Positions 9,158-34,619 of a stretch of DNA of 36,460 bases are shown piece by piece. Location: NCBI GenBank assembly GCA_030667965.1, contig DAOUUW010000009.1:1-36460 (forward strand), written 5' to 3'. Made by a program: the position numbers and the translations under genes. Numbering within the stretch: position 1 is the stretch's first letter; the number at the start of each line of letters is the position of its first letter. The notes beneath the pieces are model-generated. The model saw nothing but the letters and a program-made list of their open reading frames with translations. It was not told the DNA's origin and made no database searches. This DNA comes from Deltaproteobacteria bacterium (lineage in GTDB: Bacteria > Desulfobacterota > Desulfobulbia > Desulfobulbales > SURF-16).

Positions 9158-10348
9158 TTAATTCTCGTTGCGCCTTATGAATGTCGGCAAATCAAGGGCA
9201 TCTTCATCTAAAAACTTAACTTTATAGGGTTGACGTTTCATACCGATGTGCCTTGTCCCGCCTATTGCCTGTCTTGGCTCCTCCTCCTCCTCTTCCTCAT
9301 CAAAAGGAAGAACAGTTTTAACAGGAGTGTTTTCCGGATGAGATTTCAAGATGGGTGTCACCTTCTCCTGCAACGGCTCCATTTCCTCTTCCACCCGAAT
9401 ACCAGTGGCAACAACGGTTACCCGCAGCTCTTCCCCCAGGGACTCGTCAAAGATAACACCGAGGATAATATTTGCATCGTCATGCACTTCTTCATAGATT
9501 TTACTGGTGGCTTCCGTCACCTCGGCCATGGTCAGGGTATCTTCCCTGGCTGAGATATTCACCAGAACCCCTTTGGCGCCATCAATACTGATATCCTGCA
9601 GAAGAGGGCTGGATATGGCCATATTAACAGCGTCACTGGCCCTGTTTTCTCCCACACCGACGCCGGCGCCCATCAGGGCCGGACCCATTTCATTCATCAC
9701 GGTACGGACATCGGCAAAATCCGGATTAATGTAACCGGGCAGGTTAATCAGATCAGTGATACCCTTTACAGCCTGCACCAGAACATTGTCGGCCATTTTC
9801 ATACCATCGAGAAACCTGGTGTTTTTCTGGGTCAGGGAAAGGATGCGATCATTGGGGATGGTGATAATCGTATCCACATGTTTTTTAAGCTCTTCCCAGC
9901 CAATATCTGCATTTTTCTGGCGGGCCCGCCCTTCAAAGACAAAGGGTTTCGTCACAACAGCCACGGTCAGGGCGCCAAGCTCCTTGCTCAACTTTGCAAC
10001 AATGGGCGCAGCACCCGTGCCGGTTCCGCCGCCGAGACCGGCAGTGATAAAAACCATATCACTGCCCTTCAAGGCTTCACGGAGAATATCAATGCTTTCT
10101 TCAGCGGCTTCCCTGCCTTTTTCAGGTCTGGCGCCCGCACCAAGGCCTTTGCTGACACTTGGGCCAAGCTGCAGTGTAATATCTGCCCGGGAATGCTCCA
10201 ACGCCTGGAGATCGGTATTTGCGGCAATAAACTCAACGCCCATGAGGCGGCTTTCAACCATGGTATTAACGGCGTTTCCACCGCCGCCGCCGACACCAAA
10301 GACTTTAATCTTTGCTCTTGATGATTCTTCCGCCATCTTGAACTCCAT
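9158..10348 (-). CDS. ftsZ: Cell division protein FtsZ
   Basis: GVGGGGGNAVNTM, GLGGGTGTGAAPIVA, NIILGVIFDESLG; conserved C-terminal peptide LDLPTFIRR after an acidic linker. Confidence 0.98.
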   Translation of the reverse strand: MEFKMAEESSRAKIKVFGVGGGGGNAVNTMVESRLMGVEFIAANTDLQALEHSRADITLQLGPSVSKGLGAGARPEKGREAAEESIDILREALKGSDMVFITAGLGGGTGTGAAPIVAKLSKELGALTVAVVTKPFVFEGRARQKNADIGWEELKKHVDTIITIPNDRILSLTQKNTRFLDGMKMADNVLVQAVKGITDLINLPGYINPDFADVRTVMNEMGPALMGAGVGVGENRASDAVNMAISSPLLQDISIDGAKGVLVNISAREDTLTMAEVTEATSKIYEEVHDDANIILGVIFDESLGEELRVTVVATGIRVEEEMEPLQEKVTPILKSHPENTPVKTVLPFDEEEEEEEPRQAIGGTRHIGMKRQPYKVKFLDEDALDLPTFIRRNEN

Positions 10349-10429: not shown

Positions 10430-11662
10430 CTACATAATTCTTCCAAACAGACCCTTAATTTTCCTGGCCAATCCGCCGATTCCCTTTTGCTCCAGGACCG
10501 TGCTGACTGATCGCGACTCGCTCTTCATTCCGTACACCACAAGACCCACTCCGGTGGCGCATTGAGGCGTATTAACAATATCAGTTACTCCGCCGATTTT
10601 TCGCGGATAACCGATGCGGACCGGCAGATCAAAAATCTGTTCGGCCAACTCAACAATATTAGTGAGCATGGCCGTCCCGCCGGTCAACACCACGCCTGCC
10701 GTGATAAGGGGTTTGACGCCGGAACTAACCAGCTCATGATTCACCAGGGTCAACATCTCCTCCATCCTCGGTTCCAGAATATCACCCATCACTCTTTGCG
10801 ATAATCTGCGAGACTTTCTGCCCCCCACACTTGGAACCTCAATGGCCTGATCCTTGTTGATCATGGCGGCAATGGCGCAGCCAAATTTTTCCTTGAGTCG
10901 TTCCGCATCCTTCATTGGCGTCCTGAGCCCGATTGACAGGTCATTTGTCAGGTTGTTGCCGCCAATACCCAGGACAAATGTCCTCTGGATGCAATTTTCA
11001 GAAAAAACAGCCAGATCCGTTGTTCCACCGCCAATATCGAGCAGCGCCACACCAAGCTCCATTTCCTCCGGCGTCAAAACAGCCTCGGCCGATGCAATGG
11101 GCTCAAGCACCACATCATCCACCTCGAGCCCTGCCCTGTTGCAACATTTGATAATATTGTGCACCGCCGTAACTGAACCGGTGACAATATGCACCTCAGC
11201 CTCCAGCCTTACACCGGTCATACCCAGGGGATCCTGAATACCTCCCCGACCATCCACATGAAACTGCTGGGGCAGCACATGAATAACCGACTGATCCTGG
11301 CCCAGAGGAATGGCCTTGGCATTTTCCACCACCTTGTCAATATCGTCTCTACTGATTTCCCTGTTTTTCACAGCAATAACGCCATGACTATTCTGCCCGG
11401 AAACATGGCTTCCGGCAATGCCCACATAGACCGATGTGATATCGCAGCCGGCCATCATTTCCGCTTCATGCATCGCCTTCTCAATGGATTTGACCGTGCT
11501 CTCGATATTGACAACAACGCCTTTACGCATACCAACCGAAGGATGGGATCCAACCCCGATAATATCTACCTGACCATCAAGCACCTCACCAACCACGGTG
11601 CAAATTTTTGTTGTGCCGATATCCAGACCAATGATCAATTTTCCTCTTTCCTGATGTGACAT
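10430..11662 (-). CDS. ftsA: Cell division protein FtsA
   Basis: Start chosen at MSHQERGKLIIGLDIGTTKI; LLDIGGGTTDLAVF, VVLTGGTAML; C-terminal amphipathic tail ARKIKGLFGRIM. Confidence 0.96.
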   Translation of the reverse strand: MSHQERGKLIIGLDIGTTKICTVVGEVLDGQVDIIGVGSHPSVGMRKGVVVNIESTVKSIEKAMHEAEMMAGCDITSVYVGIAGSHVSGQNSHGVIAVKNREISRDDIDKVVENAKAIPLGQDQSVIHVLPQQFHVDGRGGIQDPLGMTGVRLEAEVHIVTGSVTAVHNIIKCCNRAGLEVDDVVLEPIASAEAVLTPEEMELGVALLDIGGGTTDLAVFSENCIQRTFVLGIGGNNLTNDLSIGLRTPMKDAERLKEKFGCAIAAMINKDQAIEVPSVGGRKSRRLSQRVMGDILEPRMEEMLTLVNHELVSSGVKPLITAGVVLTGGTAMLTNIVELAEQIFDLPVRIGYPRKIGGVTDIVNTPQCATGVGLVVYGMKSESRSVSTVLEQKGIGGLARKIKGLFGRIM

Positions 11663-11717
11663 TCTTTCCCTCAATATACTGCTATACCTGACAGGCACGT
11701 TTCCAGTCTTTGCACTT

Positions 11718-12542
11718 TCAGGCTCCCTGCTCCTCGAAGCGCACTAGAACCCTGCCCCTTATTTTTTCAGCTGTCTGCATCCCGGACATGTAATTCATAT
11801 CAATGAAAACGGCAGTGTCAAATTTATTTTTTCTGTAAAGCCAGGAAAGCACCTTGCTCAACTGATGATATTTTGTTCCGATCTTATCCCGACCAAGTGA
11901 AATGGGAAAAGGATTATCTGCCAGAAAGAGAATCATATCCCCCTGCGGCTTCATATGTATTTCAGAAATATTTTGTTTTGGCAATGAGGTCGACCCCTTT
12001 GCTGCGTACCGGATAAACTCCAGAGCATTTTTCAGCCCTGTTTTTGATCCGTCTATCTTTTCATCTGCCGTGATAAGCGGATAATCATACATATCATGAG
12101 GCCCTACTTCTGTAAAAATTACGCCATTTTTATCAATATACGAGAGGCCCGTTTCCCGGTTCGTTATGGCAACAGCCTGCCGTTCATAAATCCTGATAGA
12201 CAAGCTGTTGGGCCAGTTTCTCTCAATGTCCGCACTTTTTATCCATGGGTCATTTTCCAGCTTTTTCTTCAGTTTTTTGATGCGCACTTCCCATAAATTT
12301 GTCTGCACATCAAGTCCGCTCCAGGCAAGAATCCGGTTGGGGGTCGTTCGGCTGCACCCCGTGACATCAACTTTTTCGATCTGAAAAAAAACCGATCGGC
12401 TCAGTACCTGATAGGAAAGCAGTAAAATGACGGCCAATGCAGCCGTCAGAGCAGCGGCAATGGAGACCATTTTCAACAACTGGTCCCCGAACCAGCTTTG
12501 CTTTCCGGCACCGAAAACCTGGATACTTTTTTTTCTTTTCAC
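11718..12542 (-). CDS. ftsQ: Cell division protein FtsQ/DivIB
   Basis: N-terminal TM helix followed by a POTRA-like region (FFQIEKVDVTGCSRTTPNRILAWSGL) and DPWIKSADIERNWPNSLSIRIYER; sits between murB and ftsA. Confidence 0.9.
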   Translation of the reverse strand: MKRKKSIQVFGAGKQSWFGDQLLKMVSIAAALTAALAVILLLSYQVLSRSVFFQIEKVDVTGCSRTTPNRILAWSGLDVQTNLWEVRIKKLKKKLENDPWIKSADIERNWPNSLSIRIYERQAVAITNRETGLSYIDKNGVIFTEVGPHDMYDYPLITADEKIDGSKTGLKNALEFIRYAAKGSTSLPKQNISEIHMKPQGDMILFLADNPFPISLGRDKIGTKYHQLSKVLSWLYRKNKFDTAVFIDMNYMSGMQTAEKIRGRVLVRFEEQGA

Positions 12543-13543
12543 GTCATTCCAAGAAATTTCACTTCCGGCTCAAGTGAAATTCCAAATTTTTCACGAACCC
12601 TCTGCTGGACACTATGCATTAATGCAACAATATCTGCGGCAGTGGCCCCTCCCGTATTAACAATGAAATTGGCATGGACAGGGGAAACCATAGCCCCTCC
12701 AACTCTATACCCTTTCAGGCCCGCCTCTTCGATTAACTGCCCGGCAACCTTGCCCTGTGCCGGATTTTTAAAAAAAGAGCCGCCACTGTCCATGTTCACT
12801 GGTTGTCGCTTGCGGCGCAGCTTCTGATATTCACGGCATTTTGCTTTTATCCTTTCAGAACTGTCCTTTTTTAAAGTAAAAAATCCTTCAAGGGCTATTT
12901 TCCCTCTTACCTCCCCCCAGGACCTGTATGCAAAATTCATTTCAGCTGTTTTTGTCAAACAGAAACAGCCTTTGGTATCCATTGTTGTCACCAGGGAAAG
13001 AACATCTTTCATCTCTCTCTGCCAGGCACCGGCATTCATGACGATTGCCCCGCCGACGGATCCAGGGATGCCCGCCGCAAATTCCAATCCCGTCAAACCC
13101 TGTTCGGCAGACCACTTCACCAACTTTGCCAGGGAACAACCGGCCTGAACCTTGACAACAGCCGATGCGTCATCCTTTTGATCCATTTCAATGGCAGCAA
13201 AATTACGCCCGAGAACAATGACCATTCCGCGAATCCCTTCATCGGCAACGACAAGATTGCTTCCCCTGCCAACCACCACCCAGGGCACATTTAACCTGCG
13301 CAATCCCTGGACAAGTAATGAAAATTCATTTCGCCCCCGGGGAAAAACAATGGCATCCGCCACGCCGCCCACCTTAAATGTCGTGTATTTTGCCATGGAT
13401 TCATTCCAAGTAACCTCTCCGCTCCAGAAATCAGCCATTTCATCATTAAAGGCACCGGACCATATGGGCAGTTTTACTCGCTTTTCCCCCACAGGAACCA
13501 TCATGTCACGATATTTCCTGCTGCACGAAATCGCTTTTTCCAT
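12539..13543 (-). CDS. murB: UDP-N-acetylenolpyruvoylglucosamine reductase
   Basis: TTFKVGGVADAIVFP, VVGRGSNLVV, GLEFAAGIPGSVGGAIVMNAGAW, GGSFFKNP, VHANFIVN; 4-nt overlap with ftsQ. Confidence 0.96.
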   Translation of the reverse strand: MEKAISCSRKYRDMMVPVGEKRVKLPIWSGAFNDEMADFWSGEVTWNESMAKYTTFKVGGVADAIVFPRGRNEFSLLVQGLRRLNVPWVVVGRGSNLVVADEGIRGMVIVLGRNFAAIEMDQKDDASAVVKVQAGCSLAKLVKWSAEQGLTGLEFAAGIPGSVGGAIVMNAGAWQREMKDVLSLVTTMDTKGCFCLTKTAEMNFAYRSWGEVRGKIALEGFFTLKKDSSERIKAKCREYQKLRRKRQPVNMDSGGSFFKNPAQGKVAGQLIEEAGLKGYRVGGAMVSPVHANFIVNTGGATAADIVALMHSVQQRVREKFGISLEPEVKFLGMT

Positions 13544-13603: not shown

Positions 13604-14983
13604 CTATCCGGCAGTCAGATCCGCCAGTACCTTCTCCCCGGCCCGCCATATATTTCCGGCACCGAGAGTGACAAGAATATCGCCATCCTCAAGCATGGGC
13701 AGAACCATGTCCGGCAAATCATCCACCGTATCGGCAAGGTACACCTGCCGTTGGCCGTGTTTCCTGATGCCGTTCATCAGGGCCTCGGCTGTAACTCCCT
13801 CTATGGGTTTTTCACCGGCAGGATAAATTTCCGTCAATATGAGAATATCACTATCATGAAAGGCCGTACAAAACTCCTGAAACAGGGCCTGTGTTCTCGT
13901 GTAACGATGGGGCTGAAACATGATGATACGTCGTCTGCTCGGCCAGGCATCTCGTAATGCTGACAGAGTTGCCTTTATCTCCGTGGGATGATGACCGTAA
14001 TCATCAATGACGGTTATGCCGTTTTTTTCACCCTTAATCTGCAAACGTCTCTGTACACCGCTAAATGAGGCAAGAGCCCGGCTGATCACATCAAATGGAA
14101 TCTCAAGTTCCAGGCCAACAGCAATGGCGGCCAGGCTGTTCAGTACGTTGTGCCTCCCAGGTGAGGCAAGGGTAATCTCCCCAAGTACCGCGCCGCCAAA
14201 ACAGACCTCAAAGTGGCTTGTCAGACCTTTGGTTCTCAGTTCACGACCATACACATCGGCCTGGGCGGTGAGGCCATAGGTGATGATTCGTTTCTGTATG
14301 CGAGGCAGCAATGAGGCAATATTATCATCATCAAGACAGAGAATGGCCGCCCCGTAAAAGGGAATCTTGTTGATAAATTTGACAAAGACATCCTTTATCT
14401 CATCAAGATCCCGGTAATAATCAAGATGCTCCATATCAATATTGGTCACCACTTCAACCACCGGCGAAAGCTGCAGAAAGGAACCGTCACTCTCATCGGC
14501 TTCCGCCACCAAAAACTCTCCCTGACCCAGCTTGGCATTGGTGCCGAGACTGTTGACCTGGCCGCCGATAACCACTGTGGGATCAAGTCCCGCTTCGGCC
14601 AGAATGCAGCCCACAAGGGATGTGGTTGAGGTCTTGCCGTGGCTGCCGGCCACGGCAATGCCGTATTTCTTCAGCCGCATCAGTTCAGCCAGCATTTCAG
14701 CCCTTGGAATGACAGGAATATAGGCATCCCGGGCGGCAATAACCTCAGGGTTGTCTTCTTTTACCGCCGATGACACGACCACCACATCGGCCTTGCCGAT
14801 ACAGGTTCCATCATGTCCTTTACAAACATGTGCCCCCAGGCCTTCCAGTCGCCGGGTAATGTCGGTCTGGCGCAGATCGGACCCGCTGACCGTATAGCCA
14901 AGATTCAGCAGAAGCTCGGCTATTCCGCTCATACCGATGCCGCCGATGCCGACAAAATGAATATGTTTTGTTTTTTTATACAA
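13604..14983 (-). CDS. murC: UDP-N-acetylmuramate--L-alanine ligase
   Basis: [46 protein letters not shown]. Confidence 0.97.
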
Positions 14984-15049: not shown

Positions 15050-16141
15050 TCAGGCTGATATCATTTTTTTGCACTCCGCCAGAATTGCCTCGGTGGCCAG
15101 CGGTCTGGCATATGCTCCTGAATCCCGGGACATTTTTTCCCGTTTCTTTGTATCTTTAACAAGCTCTCTAATTGCAGCAGCCAGTTTTTTCTCTGTTATC
15201 TCTTTTTCTATGAACATTATTGCTGCACCATTTCGAACAAGATACTCACCATTTTTCTGCTGATGGTTGTCGGCTGCATATGGATATGGAATTAAAATCA
15301 TCGGCAGATTGAACACCGTCATCTCAGCCAGTGACGTAGCCCCTGCCCGGGCAACTGCAAGATCCGCCCTTTGATAAATATCCGCCATATCATGGAAAAA
15401 CCCAGACACCTCTGCGTTTATACCAAGCTCCTTATATCTTCCGGCAACAACCTGCTCATCTGCCGTGCCGGTCTGATGAATAACCTGTATACTTTCACCA
15501 CAGGACTTTTTCAGCTCTTCCATGACCACCGGCATCAGCATGTTTATGCGGTGCGCCCCCAAGCTTCCGCCAAGAACCAGCAGGGTAAACTGCGACCCGG
15601 CATTTTTTTTTTCTGCAGCGCGGGCAACTAACTCCTTTCTCACCGGATTGCCGGTTAAAACACATTTTACCTTGTCAAAGTACTGTTCGCTGCCTGGGAT
15701 AGAGAGAAAAATTCTATCTACAATTGCACCAAGTTTGCGGTTGGCCATGCCCGGCACCGAGTTTTGTTCATGTATGCAGGTTGCCACCCCCATCATCTTT
15801 GCCGCCAGCAGTACCGGTCCCGTCACATATCCCCCTACGCCAAGGACCAGATGAGGTCTGAAATTTCGTATCAGCCGGGCTGAAGCAAAGACAGCAAAGG
15901 GCAGTTGCAACAAGCTCATCAGTTTTGCAGATATGGTCTTTCCTTTTAAGCCGCTGCAGCGAATCACGGCTTTCTGAAAAGAACGTGTATCAAGCACCCG
16001 GGCATCTGTTCTGCGCCCCGTCCCGACAAAGAGCACCGTGCTTTCCGGTATGCCGGCCAGCACAGCATCAGCCACTGCAATTCCCGGAAAAAGATGCCCG
16101 CCAGTGCCGCCTCCGCATACTACCAGCCTAATCCCCACCAA
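15050..16141 (-). CDS. murG: Undecaprenyldiphospho-muramoylpentapeptide beta-N-acetylglucosaminyltransferase
   Basis: VCGGGTGGHLFPGIAVADA, LGVGGYVTGPVLLAA, HEQNSVPGMANR, LVLGGSLGAHRIN, ARAGATSLAEM. Start is TTG (16141) or GTG (16138). Confidence 0.96.
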   Translation of the reverse strand: MVGIRLVVCGGGTGGHLFPGIAVADAVLAGIPESTVLFVGTGRRTDARVLDTRSFQKAVIRCSGLKGKTISAKLMSLLQLPFAVFASARLIRNFRPHLVLGVGGYVTGPVLLAAKMMGVATCIHEQNSVPGMANRKLGAIVDRIFLSIPGSEQYFDKVKCVLTGNPVRKELVARAAEKKNAGSQFTLLVLGGSLGAHRINMLMPVVMEELKKSCGESIQVIHQTGTADEQVVAGRYKELGINAEVSGFFHDMADIYQRADLAVARAGATSLAEMTVFNLPMILIPYPYAADNHQQKNGEYLVRNGAAIMFIEKEITEKKLAAAIRELVKDTKKREKMSRDSGAYARPLATEAILAECKKMISA

Positions 16142-17516
16142 CTATCCTTTGCACAGCCCGCTTAAACACCTCTCCCCTCTGGGCATAACTTTGAAACATA
16201 TCAAAGCTGGCACAAGCCGGAGAGAGCAGTACCGCATCCCCGCTTTGTGCCCACTGGGCAGCCTTCCGTACCGCATTCTCAAGGCTCTGGGCCATTTCAA
16301 TCTGCGTGTCGCCTCCTAAAGCCTGTGCCATTGCTTCACGAGCTTCGCCGATGAGCAGCATTTTTTTGACAGTACGCCGAATGCTTGGGCTGAGCAGACG
16401 ATAATCCCCCCCCTTGCCCCGTCCTCCGGCAATGAGAATAACGGGTTGATTCATACCGTCAAGGGCGGCCTGTACTGCACCGATATTTGTCGCCTTCGAG
16501 TCGTCCAGATAGATCACCCCGTTTTTTTCCCCAACCATTTCCATTCTATGGGATGGCCGTTGAAATGCAGCAAGACCATGATCAATCGCCTTGCGTGGTA
16601 CATCCATCAACCGGGCGGCAATAATAGCTGCCATGGCATTTTCCCTGTTTGGCGATTCCTGCAAAGGCTCCGGCAATACGTATTCTTCCAGGTCAGTTCC
16701 CACACAAACATTCACCTTTGACTTTCCGGCAACAGCTGCCCCGGAACTCTTGCCCATGTCCCTGCCAAAAACAAACCTTCCAGCCGACATGGAAGTTTTT
16801 GACAACCTCGCCATTATTTCCCTGTCATCACCATTTATGATGGCCGCATCTTCCATCTGCTGATTCTGAAAAATGCTCATCTTTGAAGCAGCATAGTCTG
16901 CAAACGATGCATAGCGGTCAAGATGATCAGGGCTTATATTCAACAATAATGCCACATTGGGTCTGAAATCTCCTGCCGTATCCAGTTGAAAGCTACTCAC
17001 CTCCACCACCGCCACGTCCGCTTTTTGCCCGCTTAAAAGATAATCAGCCAGCGGGGTGCCGATGTTCCCGCCGACAAAGACTTTTTTGCCGCCGGACTGC
17101 AGCAATTCACCGATTAACTTGGTAACGGTTGTTTTGCCATTTGTTCCGGTAACTGCGATCATGGGAATATCCATAAAAGCCGATGCCAATCCCAGCTCAC
17201 CGATTATTTCAACACCTGCTTTGCGGGCGCCTGACAGCTCCGGTATATCCAGAGGTATACCCGGACTTACGATGATGAGATCGGAACCGGTAAACAACTC
17301 GAAACTGTGCCCACCTGTTTCATAAAAAATATCATTGTCAGCCAGCCATTGCAGCAATTCACTATCAAGTTGTGATTTTTGCGCCCTATCACTGAGCGCC
17401 ACCCTGCATCCCAGCCGGTGTAAAAATTTCAGGGCGGCAAATCCCGACTTGCCCGACCCCGCAACCAGCACGTTACATGAAGCGGGATGACGAATTACTT
17501 TCTTTAATCCTGTCAC
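16128..17516 (-). CDS. murD: UDP-N-acetylmuramoylalanine--D-glutamate ligase
   Basis: VTGTNGKTTVTKLIGELL, NISPDHLDRY, YLDDSKATNIGAV, LLSPACASFDMF; stop TAG at 16128 overlaps the murG start. Confidence 0.97.
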   Translation of the reverse strand: MTGLKKVIRHPASCNVLVAGSGKSGFAALKFLHRLGCRVALSDRAQKSQLDSELLQWLADNDIFYETGGHSFELFTGSDLIIVSPGIPLDIPELSGARKAGVEIIGELGLASAFMDIPMIAVTGTNGKTTVTKLIGELLQSGGKKVFVGGNIGTPLADYLLSGQKADVAVVEVSSFQLDTAGDFRPNVALLLNISPDHLDRYASFADYAASKMSIFQNQQMEDAAIINGDDREIMARLSKTSMSAGRFVFGRDMGKSSGAAVAGKSKVNVCVGTDLEEYVLPEPLQESPNRENAMAAIIAARLMDVPRKAIDHGLAAFQRPSHRMEMVGEKNGVIYLDDSKATNIGAVQAALDGMNQPVILIAGGRGKGGDYRLLSPSIRRTVKKMLLIGEAREAMAQALGGDTQIEMAQSLENAVRKAAQWAQSGDAVLLSPACASFDMFQSYAQRGEVFKRAVQRIVGGD

Positions 17517-17520
17517 GAGT

Positions 17521-18600
17521 TTACCTGAGCTTTAAGGTCGCTAGCGCCGTCAATCCGAGAATGATGGAGATGATCCAGAAACGCACCACGACTTTCGGCT
17601 CCTCCCACCCTTTTTTTTCAAAATGATGGTGAAATGGGGCCATGAGGAAAATCCGTTTACCACCTGAAGCCTTGAAATAACCCACCTGCAAAATCACCGA
17701 CAGGGCTTCCATGACAAAAATTCCGCCAACCAGCACCAGCAATATTTCCTGCTTAATAATGACTGCCACCATGCCCAGTGCGCCGCCAATGGCAAGGGAG
17801 CCCACATCACCCATAAAAAGCTGAGCCGGATACGCGTTGAACCACAAAAAACCCAGACTTGCCCCGGCCAGCGCCCCGCAGAAAACCGCGACTTCACCGG
17901 CACCGGCCACATAGGGAATCTGCAGATAGGCGGCAAGCCCGGCATGTCCGGCAAGATAAGAAAAAAGGACATAAACCCCGCTTGTCACCACGGTGGGCCC
18001 GGTGGCAAGTCCGTCCAGCCCATCAGTCAGATTTACCGCGTTTGAGGCTCCTGCCACAACCAGCACCATAAAAACAATATAAAACAGCCCCAGATCAGGT
18101 TTAATATCCTTAAAAAATGGAAAACTCAGCACCGTGTCAAAACCCGTCCGGCCGAGCAAAAATCCCCCCACCACAACGATTCCGGCAATCTGTAATGCCA
18201 TTTTCCCCCTGGCACTCAGTCCTTTTGAATTTTTCTTCTTTATCTTCCTGTAATCATCTAATCCGCCAATGGCGGCATACCATATTGTTATTGCCAGGAT
18301 GAGCCAGACATAAACATTACCCAGGTCAACCCACAGCAGGGTGGAAAAAGTGACCGCCGATATTATGAGAAGACCTCCCATGGTGGGGACACCCTGCTTA
18401 CTGAAATGGCTTTCCGGTCCATCTTGCCGTATCACCTGCCCCACCTGTCTGCTCTGCATAAAGCGAATGAATTTCGGCCCGAGAAACACGGTTATCAAAA
18501 AAGCCGTGACAATGGCGCCAATACATCTGAAAGTGATGTATCTGAAAACATTGAATCCACCAAACAGGTTATGGAGTGGAAAAAGAAGATAATAAATCAT
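17521..18600 (-). CDS. mraY: Phospho-N-acetylmuramoyl-pentapeptide transferase
   Basis: [61 protein letters not shown]. Confidence 0.98.
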
Positions 18601-18662: not shown

Positions 18663-20153
18663 TCACATCCTCTTTTTCAAATCCTCAATAATGGTTTCCA
18701 TGCGCATGCCGCGCGACCCTTTTACGAGCAGGAAATCACCTTTGCCAAGCTCACCGAGGTGGACAAAATTCATGATGGTTTCCACAATCGCTTCTTTACT
18801 TTCCATCTGTCGCGCCTGTTTCATGGTCATACTTGCATCAAGGGCTCCCTCAACGACTTTACGGGAAAATTCTCCATGGGCAAGCAGATAATCAAAATGT
18901 TTACAGGCAACTGTTTCGCCAAGATGCCTATGGGCCTTAAAGCTGGCCTCGCCCAGTTCCAGCATGTCACCGAGAATGGCTACGCTCTTTTTATTTTTCT
19001 TTATGCCCAGCACCGCATCAAGGGCGGCAAGCATGGAAGCGGGATTCGCGTTATAGCAATCGTTTATGATTTTCAGCCCTTTTATTTCTTCAATCTGCAT
19101 CCGCTTATCATAGGGCGTAAAATCAATGAGCCCCTGGACAATATGTTCCATTTTGACACCGGCAGCATGGGCCATGGCTGCCGCAGCAAGGGAATTTGTC
19201 ACATTATGCTCCCCAATACTGTGAATTTGCAGACGTTTTTTCTCCCGTCCTATGTGCAGCGTGAAAGCAACACCCTCTTCACCCTGGTTGCGAATATGGG
19301 TAGCTCTGACATGGGCCTTTTTCCCTCGACCGAATAAAATTTGCTCCCGGCTGTAGTTTCTCGCCAGTGTCCTCACCCTTTTATCATCAATATTGACACA
19401 GAGCCTGGACCACGACTTTAGTCCTGCAAACAGCTCTCCCTTTGCCCGGGCAACGCCTTCAATTGACTCCAGGCCGGACAGGTGTGCACTCTGCACATTA
19501 ACGATACAGGCTATATCAGGATCAGCTATTTCTGCCATTCTGGCTATTTCACCGGGTCGGTTCATACCCATTTCAAGAACTGCCACATCATGACATGAAT
19601 CAACTTTAAGAAGCGACAGGGGCATCCCGATGAGATTATTAAAATTTCCTTCTGTTTTCAGGACATTATATTCCCTGTTTAAGATTGCGGCACACATCTC
19701 CTTTACCGTCGTCTTGCCTGAACTACCGGTAATGGCGATGACCCGCAGATCATGCATGTGAGCCCTGCGGTAAGCGGCAAGATCTCCCAGTGCCCGCAGG
19801 GGATCCGCCACCAGAATAAACGGCACCGGCATATTAACATCAACCGGCTCCGAGACAATGACTCCGGCGGCTCCTTTTTTCAAAGCATCACGGACAAACT
19901 GCCGGCCGTCAAACCTGTCTCCGGATAAAGCCAGAAAAAGATCGCCCGGTTCCAGGGTTCGGGTATCTGTTGAAATCGAACGAAATTTCGCCTCTGTGCC
20001 ACCCGAGAGAATCCTCCCCCCCGTGGCCAGAAGCACCTGACTCAATGTCCAGACCGGATTCTGCATTGCAGCAAAACCATATCCGAAATCTGACATGATC
20101 CTTCCGGCTGCAGGTCGACTCTGCTCTCTTCTTGCACATTGCATCAGTTCCAT
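18663..20153 (-). CDS. murF: UDP-N-acetylmuramoyl-tripeptide--D-alanyl-D-alanine ligase
   Basis: ITGSSGKTTVKEMCAAIL, LEMGMNRPGEIARMAEIA, INDCYNANPASMLAALD, LLVKGSRGMRME. True start may be the internal MSDFGYGF at 20096. Confidence 0.96.
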   Translation of the reverse strand: MELMQCARREQSRPAAGRIMSDFGYGFAAMQNPVWTLSQVLLATGGRILSGGTEAKFRSISTDTRTLEPGDLFLALSGDRFDGRQFVRDALKKGAAGVIVSEPVDVNMPVPFILVADPLRALGDLAAYRRAHMHDLRVIAITGSSGKTTVKEMCAAILNREYNVLKTEGNFNNLIGMPLSLLKVDSCHDVAVLEMGMNRPGEIARMAEIADPDIACIVNVQSAHLSGLESIEGVARAKGELFAGLKSWSRLCVNIDDKRVRTLARNYSREQILFGRGKKAHVRATHIRNQGEEGVAFTLHIGREKKRLQIHSIGEHNVTNSLAAAAMAHAAGVKMEHIVQGLIDFTPYDKRMQIEEIKGLKIINDCYNANPASMLAALDAVLGIKKNKKSVAILGDMLELGEASFKAHRHLGETVACKHFDYLLAHGEFSRKVVEGALDASMTMKQARQMESKEAIVETIMNFVHLGELGKGDFLLVKGSRGMRMETIIEDLKKRM

Positions 20154-20171: not shown

Positions 20172-21725
20172 CTATAATCTCTCAAGCTGCAGTCTGGCCT
20201 GCTGCCGATCATCAAAAAAATATTTTTCAGTGCCGATAATCTGGTAATTTTCATGACCCTTACCACTGATAAAAACAACATCTCCCGTCTCAGCGCAGGT
20301 TATTGCCAACCCTATAGCCTCATCCCTTTTTTCAACAACGACATATCCGCGTTGACCCGCTTTTGTCTTGAGATCCCCAATCGTCATCAGGGCTAAATCA
20401 CCTTTCTTTACTCCCTGCTCAATATCCTGCAAAATTTTTCGCGGCGATTCGGTTCTTGCGTTATCCGTTGTCAACAAAATCACATCTGCCAGTTGCGCTG
20501 CAACCTCACCCATAAGAGGACGCTTGCCCCTGTCTCGATCACCACCGCAGCCGAACACGACAATAAACCGTAGCGGATTGAGATCCCTCAACGTTTGCAG
20601 CGCTTTCTCCAGGGCATCAGGAGTATGTGCGTAATCAACAAAAACTTTAACGCCGCTGTTTTTATCTCCTGTTACGCGCTCCATACGGCCCGGAACACTA
20701 TCTGCCCGGTTAAGCCCCAGGCAGATGGTATCAAGGTCCCAGCCCAGTGCCACGCCGCAACCGATTGCCCCTAATAAGTTTTTAAGATTAAACTCGCCAA
20801 CCAGTTGGCTCTTAAGACGGCACTGTTCTTCAGGAGTTACTATCTCTGCACATATCCCCTCAAGGCTATAATGAAAATTTCTCGCCTGAATAAGTCCCTT
20901 GCCTATTCCACAGGTCAAAAACGAATAATTGACATCTGCCATCATTCGCACCAGCTTTCCGCTCCAGCGCTCCTCGCTCTCCCCGTCACACATTCCGTCC
21001 AGAACAACGACACCTTTGCCGTTTTTTTTCAAGTGACGGGAAAAGAGTTTTTCCTTTTGCGAAAAATAGCTCTCCATACTGCCGTGAAAATCAAGATGAT
21101 CCCTGCTGAGATTGGTAAAAAGGGCAACATCAAAAAAAATCCCGTTCACCCTGTGCCGGGCAAGGGCATGGGATGAAACCTCCATGGCAACATGGGTTAC
21201 GCCGCTGTCTGCCATGCGGCGCAATGTCCGCTGCAGTTCCACCGACGGAGGAGTGGTCAGCAAAGCAGGGAACTCCTCTCCCTGGTAACGAACACTGACG
21301 GTTCCTATAACTCCCGGACGTCCCCCTGCCTCCGCAATGACCGCTTCAAGCAAATAACTACTGGTGGTTTTACCATTGGTGCCGGTAATGCCGATCATCT
21401 TCATGCTGTTAGCCGGATAATCATAAAAGGCAGCGGCAATAAAACCTAAAGCGGCCATTGTGTCGTCAACATGAATAATCGGCACTTCGTGGTCATCCAC
21501 CTCCCGGCAGACCAGCACTGCTGCACAACCTTTCTTCACTGCCTCACCGATGAAGAGATGTCCATCCACGGTCAGGCCTGCCACCGCCACAAAGAGCGTA
21601 CCAGGCTTCACCTGACGGGAATCATCGGTCACTCCGCATACTGCAACATCAGAGTAAAGAGCATCACAGGATGCCCCACAGGCAGCCAGCAGGTCGCCAA
21701 GCCGTTTGATCCTCTCACTTGCCAT
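20172..21725 (-). CDS. murE: UDP-N-acetylmuramoylalanyl-D-glutamate--diaminopimelate ligase
   Basis: ITGTNGKTTSSYLLEAVI, NLSRDHLDFHGSMESY, VFVDYAHTPDALEKAL, VFGCGGDRDRGKRPLMG, DNARTESP (variant of the DNPR-type motif that suggests meso-DAP). Confidence 0.96.
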   Translation of the reverse strand: MASERIKRLGDLLAACGASCDALYSDVAVCGVTDDSRQVKPGTLFVAVAGLTVDGHLFIGEAVKKGCAAVLVCREVDDHEVPIIHVDDTMAALGFIAAAFYDYPANSMKMIGITGTNGKTTSSYLLEAVIAEAGGRPGVIGTVSVRYQGEEFPALLTTPPSVELQRTLRRMADSGVTHVAMEVSSHALARHRVNGIFFDVALFTNLSRDHLDFHGSMESYFSQKEKLFSRHLKKNGKGVVVLDGMCDGESEERWSGKLVRMMADVNYSFLTCGIGKGLIQARNFHYSLEGICAEIVTPEEQCRLKSQLVGEFNLKNLLGAIGCGVALGWDLDTICLGLNRADSVPGRMERVTGDKNSGVKVFVDYAHTPDALEKALQTLRDLNPLRFIVVFGCGGDRDRGKRPLMGEVAAQLADVILLTTDNARTESPRKILQDIEQGVKKGDLALMTIGDLKTKAGQRGYVVVEKRDEAIGLAITCAETGDVVFISGKGHENYQIIGTEKYFFDDRQQARLQLERL

Positions 21726-23682
21726 GGGCGTGTGCCGCCTCCGCTTTTAAGACTACCACGGTCTGTTCAGTGATTTCCCCGCCTGGAGCGGGATGCTGAC
21801 TTTTAACTCTCCCTGATCCCTCTATCATTATTTTCACATCAAATCCATCCAGCACCTGCAGGGCCTTGCGAAGACTCATTCCCCTCACATCTCTCATCCT
21901 GCCCTCTTCCTGCCGTTCCGTTTGGACGCCCGGCACATTCTGTTGCCGGTACACCTGCCATTTTCTAAAAATATCTTCCCTGGATGCTTTATCAGGTTCG
22001 CTTTTTACCCCGGATTTTTTCCGGTGCATTTTCAGCGCAGCCGTTAAAAACGATGAAGCCTGTTCTTGCATCGGTGAGGGCTGGGCAAGATCAATACGCG
22101 CCTTGTCAAGGACAAGTACCATGACGATTTCAGGTTTTTTCAACGGCACCGCTGCCAGAAGTACGGTGCTGCAATTATCAATGACCGGCATGGACATCTT
22201 CTCCAGCCGGTCCGTTTTCGACTCCTGTATATCCTTTTTATCAGGATAGACAAAATCTTCCGGGGGATAGAGCACTTCACCCACAAGTGCGAAACCGGCA
22301 GGCGGGGCCGCTTCCTCCAGAAAACGAAAAAATCTCTTCTTCCCTTCACTCTCTTCCACCTGTTCCACCTTCTGCCATGGCCCCTCTTCCATTTCGCCTT
22401 GCGCTGAAATGGTGGATTGCAGAAAATGCGGCTTGACCGGATTGGCTCCGTTTACAAGACCGGCAAAACCACAAAGAAGACCAAGCCCGGTTTGGGTGCC
22501 TCCATGTTCTCCAGGGAGATCAACCTGACACAGGTCCCCGGGTCCGGTAAATTCTTCCATATCAAAAAACTCATCGTAAATGGAGAGAAGCAGCCTGTCC
22601 TCCCCGGACAGGGCTTCAGACAGCCAGACAGAAGAAAAACTACCATCAGCAAGCGCGGCCCATTCAGGCTTTTTCTTCTTGATGCGCAGATTCTTCACAA
22701 TACGGGGGTGCAAAACTTTTATATCATCGGGCAGTTCCTCTTCGCCGGCAACCACAGTCCGCCCTTTATTGTATGCTGCCCCTGCCTTAAAAAGCAGAAG
22801 GAGAGAGCCGGGATCAACTTCCGCCGACAAAAGGCGCCCGTGACGTCGATTCCCATCCTTGTCCTGCAGATCCGCCGGATCAGCAAAGGGCAGCTGGACG
22901 TAAGCAAGAATTTCTCCTGTGGCTGCTTCCATTGCAAGAGCGCTTACCATTGGATATTGTGCCGTGACATTGTTATTCCCCTCTATTTTTACCAGGAGAT
23001 CTTTCATCTTTTTTCCCAACAGGCTTTGCATTTGCACATCAAGAGTCAGGACAAGATCCCGACCTGCTACCTTTTCTCCCGCTCCATCTTCAGCTAATCC
23101 GTCACTGAGCATTTCATCATAATAAAACTCAATCCCTGACAAACCATGGCTGCCTTTCACCTCGCCGATTATATGGGATGTACTCTCACCTCCAGCATAA
23201 AAGCGTTTTTCCTGCCGAAAAAAATAAACTCCGGGCAACCCCAGAGCATCCACCTCTTCAGCCTTATCAGGAAAAATGTCCTTTGCCAGCCACTTGAAAC
23301 TTCGCTGGGTCTTCAGCTCCTCAAGCAGGCTTTGCTTTTCCAGGTTCAACACCTCCGCCAGACGGGCAACCGTCTCCTCGATATTGTCAAATTCCAGTGG
23401 TTTGACATAAATTGATATGGTCTCCAGACTGACAGCCAAATCTTCAAAATGACGGTCATAGATATTTCTTCGTCCTGTTTGCTCCTTTTCCTCGGGTAAC
23501 GCCTCCTGCGCAAGGGGCTCTTGCTCTACTACCTGCTGCGGGTCAGGCCGGTTAAGATACAAATAGCCGGCCCCGGAAACAGCAAAAAGCACAATTACAA
23601 AGGCCACTATCTTCCGGATGCTCTTTTTTTTACTTTGATCCTCCTGCCGGTACGCATCCTTTTTGGCCAAATCCCTGATCAT
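21715..23682 (-). CDS. ftsI: FtsI/PBP3-like protein with C-terminal PASTA domain; transpeptidase motifs apparently lost (predicted pseudo-transpeptidase)
   Basis: Uninterrupted 655 aa ORF in the ftsI slot; one N-terminal TM; FtsI-like blocks RRNIYDRHFEDLAVS, LGLPGVYFFRQEKRFYAGGE, GLSGIEFYYDEMLSDG, GRDLVLTLDVQMQ, VDLPGEHGG; PASTA-like MRDVRGMSLRKALQVLDGFDVKIMIEGSGRVKSQHPAPGG. Active-site block reads DPGSLLLLFKAG instead of PGSTFK; no SxN or KTG found. Confidence 0.88.
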   Translation of the reverse strand: MIRDLAKKDAYRQEDQSKKKSIRKIVAFVIVLFAVSGAGYLYLNRPDPQQVVEQEPLAQEALPEEKEQTGRRNIYDRHFEDLAVSLETISIYVKPLEFDNIEETVARLAEVLNLEKQSLLEELKTQRSFKWLAKDIFPDKAEEVDALGLPGVYFFRQEKRFYAGGESTSHIIGEVKGSHGLSGIEFYYDEMLSDGLAEDGAGEKVAGRDLVLTLDVQMQSLLGKKMKDLLVKIEGNNNVTAQYPMVSALAMEAATGEILAYVQLPFADPADLQDKDGNRRHGRLLSAEVDPGSLLLLFKAGAAYNKGRTVVAGEEELPDDIKVLHPRIVKNLRIKKKKPEWAALADGSFSSVWLSEALSGEDRLLLSIYDEFFDMEEFTGPGDLCQVDLPGEHGGTQTGLGLLCGFAGLVNGANPVKPHFLQSTISAQGEMEEGPWQKVEQVEESEGKKRFFRFLEEAAPPAGFALVGEVLYPPEDFVYPDKKDIQESKTDRLEKMSMPVIDNCSTVLLAAVPLKKPEIVMVLVLDKARIDLAQPSPMQEQASSFLTAALKMHRKKSGVKSEPDKASREDIFRKWQVYRQQNVPGVQTERQEEGRMRDVRGMSLRKALQVLDGFDVKIMIEGSGRVKSQHPAPGGEITEQTVVVLKAEAAHAHGK

Positions 23683-24053
23683 GGACTGGGGATCCTGACA
23701 GTTATGCCATCTCCTATATATTTTTCAGTGGAGGGATACAGGGCAAGATCTTTGGCCGCCACAGTCTCAATACGATCCCGGACAAGAAGCTTATCTGCTT
23801 CCCCCTGCAGCACAAGGCTTGCCTGACGCAGCTCCTGTTTTCGTCCCTGCTCTTTCGATAGATCATCCAGCCCGCTCCTGATCTTCCAGGAAAACCAGCA
23901 ACTGCCGGCCAAACCAATCAGGGTGGTTAAAATGACAATAATGCCGGACAACTTCCAGAACAAGTCGCTGATCGGCATTTTCCGATCCGGATCATACCTG
24001 TCCTTTTCCCTTTTAAGACCAGCCTTATAGCTGGGTGAGTAATCACTAATCAT
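23679..24053 (-). CDS. ftsL: FtsL-like cell division protein
   Basis: 124 aa, single TM then a coiled-coil-like segment; between rsmH and ftsI with 4-nt overlaps on both sides. Confidence 0.75.
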   Translation of the reverse strand: MISDYSPSYKAGLKREKDRYDPDRKMPISDLFWKLSGIIVILTTLIGLAGSCWFSWKIRSGLDDLSKEQGRKQELRQASLVLQGEADKLLVRDRIETVAAKDLALYPSTEKYIGDGITVRIPSP

Positions 24054-24931
24054 AGATTCTCCCGAACAGATGCAACCCGCAGCCTTGCGCTTCGTGCCCG
24101 TGGATTTTTCTGCATTTCCCCTGCGGAGGCCTTCACCGGCTTGGCGTTTACCGGGTTTAGAACAGGATTATTACGAAAAGTCCGTTTCACCAGACGGTCC
24201 TCCAGAGAATGGAAAGAAATTATGCAGATGCGCCCGCCCGGCCTGACAATGCCGCCTGCCGAGGCGAGAATGGTCTCCAGGTTTTCCAACTCTCTGTTGA
24301 CGGCGATGCGAAGGGCCTGAAAAACCTTGGTTGCCACGTGGATCTTTTTGGGCCAAAAACGGCGGGGCACCGCCTCTTCAATGACCTTGACCAGCTGATC
24401 TGTGGTGAAAAACAGGGCCTGCCTGCGGGCATCTATGACGCGGGATGCTATACGGCGGGCCTGCCTTTCATCTCCATAGTAATAAAAAATATCAGCCAGA
24501 TCTTCTTCCGCGGCCCGGTTCAGCAGGTCGGCCGCTGTCTGTCCTCCCCTGACATCCATACGCATGTCAAGGGGTTCTGACCCCTGGAATGAAAACCCAC
24601 GGCCTGCGGCATCAAGCTGCAGCGAAGAAAGACCGAGATCAAGAAGCAACCCGTCTATAGAGGCAACGCCTTTTTCCTGCAGAACCTCTTCAATCTCGGC
24701 AAAATTTCTTCTGACAAACTCGATACGGCCACTGTATTTCGCCAGGTTCTTCCTGGCCCGGGTCAGAGCCTCCTCGTCCCAGTCAAAACCGATGACCTTC
24801 CCCCCTGGACTGCTTGCCTCAAGAATTGCGCTGCTATGCCCGCCGAGCCCCAGGTTGCCATCCACATAAAGACCGCCATCCTGCGGGGCCAGGAACTCAA
24901 TAACTTCATCCAGCAGAACAGGAAGATGCAC
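24050..24931 (-). CDS. rsmH: 16S rRNA (cytosine(1402)-N(4))-methyltransferase (MraW)
   Basis: HLPVLLDEVIEFL, DGNLGLGGHSSAILE, GFDWDEEALTRA, LLLDLGLSSLQLD, RGFSFQGSEPLDMRMD, IISFHSLEDRLVKRTF. GTG at 24931 preferred; the ORF can extend to a TTG at 24967. Confidence 0.95.
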   Translation of the reverse strand: MHLPVLLDEVIEFLAPQDGGLYVDGNLGLGGHSSAILEASSPGGKVIGFDWDEEALTRARKNLAKYSGRIEFVRRNFAEIEEVLQEKGVASIDGLLLDLGLSSLQLDAAGRGFSFQGSEPLDMRMDVRGGQTAADLLNRAAEEDLADIFYYYGDERQARRIASRVIDARRQALFFTTDQLVKVIEEAVPRRFWPKKIHVATKVFQALRIAVNRELENLETILASAGGIVRPGGRICIISFHSLEDRLVKRTFRNNPVLNPVNAKPVKASAGEMQKNPRARSARLRVASVRENL

Positions 24932-24944
24932 CGGCCCGCCAGGG

Positions 24945-24972
24945 AATTGACAATTTATTATTGGCAATTACG
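24945..24972. repeat. Degenerate 7-nt tandem repeat, 4 units (AATTGAC AATTTAT TATTGGC AATTACG)
   Basis: Read directly at the 5' edge of rsmH; resembles the repeat at 18613. Confidence 0.6.
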
Positions 24973-25010: not shown

Positions 25011-25490
25011 CTAAAAAAGACCCTGATTATTAAATGTTGCTTCAAAATCCTTGAAATCCTGATCAGTTATGGTGCTTTCCGTCTCCCACCTCTCCTTATC
25101 CCATAACTCAAAAAAAGTGAGCATACCGTTCATCACGACGTCTTTTTTCAAATCAAGCTGGGAACGAAGCTGGGCAGGAAGGAGAATGCGGCCGTTCTTG
25201 TCTATCTGGCATTCCACCGAACCGCCGACAAGATAGCGGAACATCTTTTGAACCTGGGGAGTTTTCTGTTCTATGTTCAACAGAGTCATCTCCTGTTTTT
25301 CCCACTCTGCCAGGGGATAGATACGCAGACAATTAGGCCAGGGAGGAGTAATAATCAGACGTTCGTCGTATCCGCGCATGAGCACATCACGAAAACGAGC
25401 CGGTAGATTGAGCCTGCCTTTGCCGTCCAGGGCATGTTCGGACCGCCCCCTGAAACGACTTGACTGATTTTTCATGAACGACTCATTCAT
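25011..25490 (-). CDS. mraZ: Transcriptional regulator MraZ
   Basis: SSRFRGRSEHALDGKGRLNLPARFRDVL, GGSVECQIDKNGRILLPAQLRSQLDLKKDVVMNGMLTFFELWD; first gene of the dcw cluster. Met-5 or Met-10 of the ORF likely starts. Confidence 0.95.
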   Translation of the reverse strand: MNESFMKNQSSRFRGRSEHALDGKGRLNLPARFRDVLMRGYDERLIITPPWPNCLRIYPLAEWEKQEMTLLNIEQKTPQVQKMFRYLVGGSVECQIDKNGRILLPAQLRSQLDLKKDVVMNGMLTFFELWDKERWETESTITDQDFKDFEATFNNQGLF

Positions 25491-25498
25491 ACCTCTTT

Positions 25499-25524
25499 CC
25501 ACCCCTTCACACCCATTTAGCCCA
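25499..25524 (-). promoter_or_regulatory. Candidate MraZ-binding TGGG-type direct repeats upstream of mraZ
   Basis: Minus strand reads GTGGGCTAAATGGGTGTGAAGGGGTGG, i.e. TGGG/TGGG/AGGG spaced 9 nt just before the mraZ start. MraZ is known to bind short TGGG-containing direct repeats at its own promoter. Confidence 0.5.
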
Positions 25525-25843: not shown

Positions 25844-26566
25844 TCAAACAATCACACGCTGCCGAATAAATTTGACAATCTCATCCGCGCTGTCAAGAAC
25901 CTGAAAAATATCCAGATCATCCTCACGAATACTTCCTTTTGCCAGCATGGTATCACGGATCCAGCTAACCAGGCCACCCCAATACTCACTGCCCACCAGC
26001 ACAATGGGAAAAGGCTTGATGCGCTTTGTCTGAATAAGAGTGATGGCTTCAAAAAGCTCGTCAAGGGTACCGAAACCGCCAGGCATGGCAATAAAGGCCA
26101 TAGCGTACTTGATCAGCATGACCTTACGAACAAAAAAATACTTGAACGCCAAGGGAAGATTTGCATATTTATTGCCCTCCTGTTCAAAGGGCAAATGAAT
26201 ATTCAAGCCAATTGAAGGCGCCCCCACTTCGGCGGCCCCGCGATTACCCGCTTCCATAATTCCGGGCCCTCCGCCTGTCATAATGGCGTACCCTTCTTCA
26301 GCAAGACGTCTACTGACATCAACGGCCAGCTGGTAAAATGGATCATCCTCTCCAATACGTGCTGAACCGAAAATGGACACCACAGGCCTGTTGACTGCCG
26401 CCAGGGTATCAAACCCGTCAACAAACTCCGACATGATACGGAACAGGCGCCACGAATCGCCGACCTTAAAAGTGTCCAACCAATATTGCTGTTTTTCATC
26501 AACCGGACCGGAATTAAAAACCATGTTTTCCTCTTTTAGATATTGCGTGTTTTTTAGGCCCCCCAT
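25844..26566 (-). CDS. LOG-family (TIGR00730-type) Rossmann-fold protein, nucleoside 5'-monophosphate phosphoribohydrolase-like
   Basis: ITGGGPGIMEAGNRGA and AMPGGFGTLDELFEAITLIQT signatures. True start may be Met-15 (MVFNSGPVDEKQQYW). Confidence 0.9.
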   Translation of the reverse strand: MGGLKNTQYLKEENMVFNSGPVDEKQQYWLDTFKVGDSWRLFRIMSEFVDGFDTLAAVNRPVVSIFGSARIGEDDPFYQLAVDVSRRLAEEGYAIMTGGGPGIMEAGNRGAAEVGAPSIGLNIHLPFEQEGNKYANLPLAFKYFFVRKVMLIKYAMAFIAMPGGFGTLDELFEAITLIQTKRIKPFPIVLVGSEYWGGLVSWIRDTMLAKGSIREDDLDIFQVLDSADEIVKFIRQRVIV

Positions 26567-28719: not shown

Positions 28720-28785
28720 ATTAATAAAATATACAGGCCACAGAAAGCTATTTCTGTCTTCATAAAACACGAGGTGTTATTAAAT

Positions 28786-34400: not shown

Positions 34401-34619
34401 CTGATCACAGATCAGACCATGCCTGGTTTATCCGGGTTTGAATTGGCAAAGAAAGTTTTGCAAATAAAGCCGAACATAGGGATTATCCTCAGCACCGGCT
34501 ACAGCTCTGCCATCACAGAAAAAGAAGCCCTGGCAATCGGCATAAAAAAATATGCCGAAAAACCGGTTGATAGAACAACGCTTGCTAAAATTGTCAGAGA
34601 GGTTTTGGGCAATAACTGA
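31437..34619 (+). CDS. Hybrid histidine kinase: REC-GAF-PAS(x3)-HisKA-HATPase-REC
   Basis: N-terminal REC RILLVEDSEHDTAAFNRAL...DLVVADYKLPGMTGLEL; H-box GGIAHDFNNILSAIIGFSEVA; GKGTGLGLAVIHGIIK; C-terminal REC RILIVDDESSIVNLHKTVLQRLGYRV...ITDQTMPGLSGFELA. RBS AAGGAG before the ATG. Confidence 0.93.
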   Translation: MDTGNNFTPSPLRILLVEDSEHDTAAFNRALDKGGLKAEVTHFVKAEEALKSLQISPLSYDLVVADYKLPGMTGLELCKQIINQQIPLPCIIVTSAGTEHIAVEALKAGVFDYLVKDFQQNYLQLLPLLLPEVVRKYQDRLSSRIFRREREVIAGISEMFLAPEDLETLCRKLPDAIVAGFAFPVSAILLLDENRKEMVVKGVSGIADTTLLNKRVPLEKTTCCQTIEQGQPVLKLDIAANPDLHCFLKDSGINTCLSVPIKGKRSGVMGALVLADFSTRSDADIHISALQVISHHLGQEIERKQVEDELCLRNEIMGNMAEGVYLVQASTLQIIYANPVFEKMFGYDPGEMLGKHVSIVNAPTVKSPQETATMILEVLSDKGFWQGEVKNIKKDGTPFWCSASVSGFEHHEYGKVWISIHTDIADRKQAVETLRASEARMYTLIEALPDLVWLKDKDGIFLVCNRKFERLFGTPATEIVGKTDYDFVDTKLADFFREKDKVAMAAGKSTVNEEEVVYADNGHREILETIKTPMFDPAGKLIGILGIARDITDRKKTEIALRNSEKQWNQTFNSIPDIVTFLDTDLRILKVNQQACSILDLSSDEIIGKHCYELFHDSKEPCQDCPLTQTKESLKAFSGEIYHEKLGKTFLVSETPVFGELGELEYIAHVAKDITAQKRLEKELFQAQKMEAIGTLAGGIAHDFNNILSAIIGFSEVAKLEMPADSRAGKDIDKVIKAGRRAAELVKQILTFSRMTDHQLQPMIPNLIIKEALKMLRSSLPTTISIKEAIDTACGLILADPTNVHQIVMNLCTNAFHAMENEKGILTVNLYRKEIRAEDICESDVSAGPFVVLSVSDTGHGMDKITMERIFEPYFTTKEVGKGTGLGLAVIHGIIKDYKGFIRVESEPEKGTTFHVHFPALVKIASTQEKTEEDVPTGTERILIVDDESSIVNLHKTVLQRLGYRVTATTNSEEALEKIRLHPEQFDLLITDQTMPGLSGFELAKKVLQIKPNIGIILSTGYSSAITEKEALAIGIKKYAEKPVDRTTLAKIVREVLGNN

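Follow-up and report, generated by a model that had tools for sequence, protein, structure and literature searches.

The dcw cluster and its murD–murG junction

The window, i.e., the whole analysed stretch of 36,460 nt, carries on its minus strand a dcw cluster with the gene order mraZ, rsmH, a gene in the ftsL position, ftsI, murE, murF, mraY, murD, murG, murC, murB, ftsQ, ftsA, and ftsZ. Domain matches identified mraZ (25011..25502), murE (20172..21725), murF (18663..20153), ftsA (10430..11698), and ftsZ (9158..10348); rsmH (mraW, 24050..24967) was assigned by a profile match, and ftsQ (11718..12542), by its POTRA and FtsQ C-terminal domains. Two further genes, murC (13604..14983) and murB (12539..13543), also served as BLAST references for the loci of relatives. 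The ftsL position is occupied by a gene for a small membrane protein of 124 aa (23679..24053), assigned by position and one hydrophobic segment, with no match in Pfam and NCBIfam searches. The ftsI slot (21715..23682) encodes a protein of 655 aa.

FtsW is normally held to build the bacterial dividing wall, with FtsI as its partner. In E. coli, used as a control, ftsW sits exactly between murD and murG, and it occupies the same slot in outgroup loci. In the window, by the ORF coordinates, murD (462 aa, 16128..17516) and murG (363 aa, 15050..16141) overlap at 16128..16141: the TAG stop codon of murD (16128–16130) lies inside the start region of murG, for which there are two candidate codons, TTG at 16141 and GTG at 16138. 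As the overlap is 14 nt with the TTG start or 11 nt with the GTG start, the slot is empty, which bears out the original prediction that ftsW is absent from its canonical place. Neither protein is truncated, and MurG scores above the curated cut-off of TIGR01133 (300 bits vs. 250). The same prediction held that no other ORF of the window has SEDS features and that mraY (17521..18600) is the only polytopic wall gene there; domain searches of the large ORFs agree, revealing no SEDS protein in the window.

The cluster is adjoined by a possible lysine decarboxylase (LOG-type) family gene (25844–26566). Past it, on the plus strand, are genes for two large PAS-domain sensor kinases, a MASE3-type-like histidine kinase (28774–31383) and one of the hybrid type (31437–34619).

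The sole SEDS protein and the FtsI of the cluster

The genome of origin is a draft of 3.06 Mb in 263 contigs, 94.5% complete. Its PF01098 profile search yielded a single SEDS match, on contig C177, that scores 412.7 bits with the RodA model TIGR02210 (cut-off 336.7) and 292 bits, under the cut-off of 337.5, with the ftsW model TIGR02614. The gene is directly downstream of mrdA, encoding PBP2 with intact motifs, and mreC is on the same contig. The protein has the HTDF motif at the position of E. coli RodA D262, and the matching residue is also kept in the other aligned SEDS proteins of ftsW-less genomes. In the maximum likelihood tree of 108 SEDS proteins, an FtsW clade (genes beside murD/murG) is separated from a RodA clade (genes mostly beside mrdA), and all placed SEDS proteins of ftsW-less genomes belong to the latter, except the distant outlier L249. 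This outlier, from genome G249 of family f57, is a second, very divergent SEDS-like match beside a non-catalytic PBP-like gene.

The original prediction considered a true loss of ftsW, to be distinguished from its relocation, in particular to the vicinity of a catalytic class B PBP gene. The only SEDS gene with such a neighbour is rodA beside the PBP2 gene, and the whole-genome SEDS searches together with the SEDS tree rule out a relocated ftsW. The empty slot is, on sequence grounds, a loss of ftsW and not a relocation.

The protein of the ftsI slot has the marks of a class B PBP, namely, the dcw place between ftsL and murE, a TM anchor, and the PBP_dimer domain, or pedestal (residues 70–178, 23149..23475; PF03717, 40.4 bits), followed by a degenerate transpeptidase domain and a C-terminal PASTA domain (residues 595–646, 21745..21900; PF03793). 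With the transpeptidase family PF00905 it scores 19.3 bits, under the cut-off of 22.1, and the SxxK, SxN, and KTG motifs are all missing; the lost SxxK site (22786..22812) reads PGSLLLLFK, the E. coli FtsI sequence being PGSTVKP. SxxK and KTG are likewise missing from their proper positions in all FtsI proteins of Desulfobulbales. As the AlphaFold model of the protein is confident (pLDDT 81) and matches in a Foldseek search of PDB the structures of SpoVD, PBP3, and PBP2x over most of the length (E 1e-25 to 1e-22), the protein is a degenerate PBP fold. By its sequence, FtsI of the cluster is a pseudoenzyme, with the fold, the pedestal, and PASTA kept and the active site gone.

In the alignment of 38 FtsI proteins the pedestal and PASTA are the best conserved parts, the PASTA domain having invariant columns G601, S603, R605, G622, G624, Q629, and P631, and full FtsI length is kept across the order. 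In comparisons between congeners dN/dS is mostly 0.03–0.12 for the pedestal, 0.09–0.21 for PASTA, and about 0.09–0.33 for the old transpeptidase region. Given this purifying selection at the codon level, the dead FtsI should still do a job.

Distribution of the loss in the order and the phylum

A scan of named genomes with the window's MurG assigns the window to Desulfobulbales, as judged by the names of the matches. The nearest ones come from MAGs and Candidatus Desulfobulbia-type record Candidatus Desulfobia, and the next ones, from Desulfurivibrio, Desulfobulbus, Desulforhopalus, Desulfosediminicola, Desulfogranum, Desulfopila, and the cable bacteria Electrothrix and Electronema. Each of 58 relatives from the order, representing 34 genera, has one SEDS protein, if broken fragments are disregarded and with the exception of a single genome that has no SEDS at all, and wherever typed, this protein is RodA. 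The searched named Desulfobulbales genomes, both cable-bacterium genera included, also have one SEDS each. In the single-contig genome G031, rodA (L410, 12576–13757) is interrupted by a frameshift, real or due to a sequencing error, within a stretch of consecutive C.

The dcw synteny in relatives, whose comparison had been suggested together with the original prediction, shows the same arrangement: murD is directly followed by murG in 19 out of 19 junction-spanning clusters, one from each of 19 further genomes of the order, and the remaining genes of the cluster are preserved too. Hence, the junction is not due to chance. An assembly artefact is ruled out as well, the same junction being present in single-contig genomes and many genera. 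In the named Desulfobulbales loci spanning the junction, murD adjoins murG save for a few loci with inserts, and ftsW was found between the two genes in no Desulfobulbales locus, including the insert-bearing L148 and L150.

Several loci of the order have peculiarities of their own. The inserts between murD and murG in L148 and L150 (Candidatus Electrothrix aarhusensis) are approximately 4–5 kb long, and the one in L150 also parts mraY from murD. No ftsI was found in the loci analysed from the two cable-bacterium genera. In L109–L116 from families f11 and f12, a single ORF of approximately 1020–1070 aa covers both MurE and MurF, read as a fusion.

The phylum sample comprised 295 genomes, each at least 95% complete, and many of the compared genomes are drafts or metagenome assemblies (loci are designated L, genomes G, and families in this comparison f). 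Most families have two SEDS proteins, and FtsW of other families of the phylum matches the SEDS HMM at 340–405 bits. Among the examined families with one SEDS, most keep RodA and a dead FtsI of 250–643 aa, like Desulfobulbales. Families f27, f31, and f88 present the reciprocal case, keeping FtsW and an intact FtsI and having no RodA and no MreC (L228, L229, L243; G069, G073, G234).

The state of FtsI follows that of ftsW in 67 dcw clusters of the phylum. All 29 clusters with ftsW have an intact FtsI, with KTG present in all 29 (SxxK was scored here by two patterns, and L341 alone matched neither), and among the clusters lacking ftsW, FtsI was identified in 35 and is dead in every one of them. 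Judged by these motifs, the loss of ftsW and the loss of the FtsI active site coincide across the 67 clusters. The gene tree of six concatenated dcw cluster proteins needs three losses, a number imposed by its starred branches. One falls in the common ancestor of Desulfobulbales and of the clade with a Thermodesulfobacteriales MAG, and the two others, in f26 and in f57/f32. In f26, FtsI reads YELGELAGF where the ftsW-bearing sister L186 has FEPGSTFKT, and f57 and f32 have a shortened FtsI of about 250–340 aa. The ftsW loss is thus reconstructed as true and ancient, ancestral to Desulfobulbales and related deep lineages.

In the ftsW-less families f57 and f32 (L290–L293), a membrane protein of 261–263 aa is encoded between murD and murG (e.g., at about 10585–11370 on the plus strand of L291). 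Its low-confidence model (pLDDT 51) has approximately ten helices and no credible PDB match, and the protein belongs to no Pfam family. It shows weak collinear similarity to the FtsW profile (hhalign P 0.03, probability <2%), with controls scoring lower.

Candidate enzymes of septal wall synthesis

Three class A PBPs (aPBPs) are encoded in the window's genome. In one of them, a 686-aa enzyme encoded on contig C105, the motifs for both glycosyltransferase and transpeptidase activity are complete (EDxxFxxHxG, PGSAFKP, KTGT). No genome of the phylum sample lacks an aPBP, and in those aPBPs read from ftsW-less genomes the glycosyltransferase and KTG motifs are intact. Compensation of the loss by a larger number of aPBPs was not seen, a single aPBP being common in ftsW-less families. 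The type of the enzyme differs: where an ftsW-less family has just one aPBP, and its length is listed, the enzyme is always short (614–714 aa) and can be aligned as a homologue with almost the entire C105 enzyme, whereas in the ftsW-bearing single-aPBP families the long type is found in 13 cases out of 14, and the short type, in one. The association of the short type with ftsW absence by family (Fisher P 7e-5) covers only about three independent events, since most ftsW-less families form one clade. In minimal ftsW-less genomes with a single aPBP, no intact transpeptidase was seen besides PBP2 and the aPBP, with FtsI remnants and unclassified 422–429 aa frames in G206 and G129 set aside. Moreover, almost every ftsW-less genome tested has MreC alongside RodA and PBP2, and as the three stay together, the elongasome still exists there.

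Elimination leaves two options for septal synthesis, an aPBP or a RodA–PBP2 pair on double duty. The former is favoured by the precedent of Clostridioides difficile, where the aPBP PBP1 builds the septum and RodA–PBP2 serves mainly elongation (PMC10693644), and the class B PBP3 promotes PBP1 septation without catalysis (PMC12539705). By this elimination and analogy we infer that cells of the order must rely on a different enzyme for the dividing wall, most likely a class A PBP. The starting point is the ancient loss of both ftsW and FtsI transpeptidase activity in the common ancestor of Desulfobulbales and related deep lineages. In the proposed scheme, RodA–PBP2–MreC would be responsible for elongation, and a bifunctional aPBP, in the window's genome most likely the 686-aa C105 enzyme, would polymerise and cross-link septal glycan. 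The dead FtsI, held by FtsZ–FtsA–FtsQ/L (FtsZ, FtsA, and FtsQ remain in the window's cluster), could be a non-catalytic recruiter or activator of the septal aPBP, that is, a fixed form of the non-catalytic role seen in C. difficile PBP3. We consider this explanation as a whole to be probable. A more tentative extension, doubtful at present, is that ftsW loss has repeatedly made FtsI a dedicated non-catalytic septal factor recruiting or activating a class A PBP, and that the slot protein of f57/f32 may be a SEDS relic devoid of the catalytic loop and paired with FtsI reduced to TM and PASTA, both persisting as a regulatory pseudoenzyme pair.

The pedestal is the part of FtsI that meets the SEDS protein in canonical complexes. 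Its retention, and the fact that RodA–PBP2 is the only catalytic SEDS–bPBP pair left, would fit a division of labour where this pair does both jobs, being passed on by the elongasome to the divisome, where the dead FtsI would dock it to FtsQ/L, and aPBPs engaged only in repair. C. difficile, having a similar enzyme set, nevertheless uses RodA–PBP2 mainly for elongation (PMC10693644), and the order contains a draft genome, G057, estimated as 99% complete, where the dcw cluster with a dead FtsI and three aPBPs are present and SEDS, PBP2, and MreC were all not found. As mreC, mrdA, and rodA form one operon, a gap over it is possible in the draft assembly, the parts read having no conserved synteny that bears on the absence of the three genes; if the assembly is complete at that operon, G057 would exclude RodA as the septal enzyme there. 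On balance, the double duty of RodA–PBP2 seems rather unlikely.

Two other explanations were considered. The dead FtsI could be a decaying leftover without a role, kept only by the operon structure, as the shrinkage of the protein in f57 and f32 might suggest; yet purifying selection acts in every domain (dN/dS mostly 0.03–0.33), PASTA and pedestal residues are invariant across the 38 proteins, the full length is preserved across the order, and FtsI has been retained after three independent losses, which makes such decay quite improbable. Given the 263-contig draft, ftsW could also have been missed, having fallen in an assembly gap or diverged too far for PF01098. However, the slot itself is assembled and empty, the gene is absent in all relatives from the order, including single-contig G024 and Desulfosediminicola flagellatus, and the HMM does detect FtsW in other families of the phylum at the scores given above, so that this reading is strongly disfavoured and has hardly any chance of being correct.

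FtsW–FtsI was regarded as the septal synthase common to all walled bacteria, C. difficile and other Clostridia being, to our knowledge, the first clear exception. The present data point to at least three losses of FtsW–FtsI activity in one phylum with FtsI kept as a pseudoenzyme, and to a whole order without FtsW that includes both the window's host, a sulfur-cycling bacterium, and cable bacteria. This natural experiment separates the structural role of FtsI from the catalytic one, and makes septation without SEDS–bPBP activity a testable question in culturable environmental species. It predicts bacteria that have no target for FtsI-specific beta-lactams, and whose division should be blocked by class A PBP inhibitors.

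The absence of ftsW in this lineage is already on record: a 2021 study of cable bacteria and two Desulfobulbus lists the gene, in a table, as absent from four Desulfobulbaceae genomes (PMC7873302). In the available part of this source septal synthesis is described as proceeding by FtsI activity, FtsI being treated as active, and there is no mention of a catalytically dead FtsI, of the order-wide or wider loss, or of replacement enzymes, all addressed here. What is added to the known absence in four genomes is, then, the dead FtsI, the order-wide and wider extent, and the repetition of the loss, none of which we found described in the open-access literature (subscription papers were outside the search).

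FtsI described here differs from that of the canonical FtsW–FtsI (PBP3) septal synthase in having lost its SEDS partner and all three transpeptidase motifs, whereas the TM anchor, the PBP_dimer pedestal, the PBP fold as a whole, and the place in the dcw cluster are the same. Several features are shared with C. difficile. Vegetative division proceeds there without a functional FtsW–FtsI pair, and here there is no FtsW and no catalytic FtsI; RodA–PBP2 is the only essential SEDS–bPBP pair there and the only catalytic one here; a class A PBP is present in C. difficile, and a catalytically complete one, in the window's genome too. C. difficile PBP3 is a class B PBP aiding septation non-catalytically, and the dead FtsI, whose purifying selection fits such a role, is a candidate counterpart. 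At the same time, PBP3 is still an intact enzyme, whereas here the dcw-encoded FtsI itself is the dead partner; the dcw-encoded SpoVE–SpoVD pair is kept in C. difficile for sporulation, whereas here ftsW is gone; and FtsA is absent in C. difficile, whereas the Desulfobacterota considered here have both FtsA and FtsZ.
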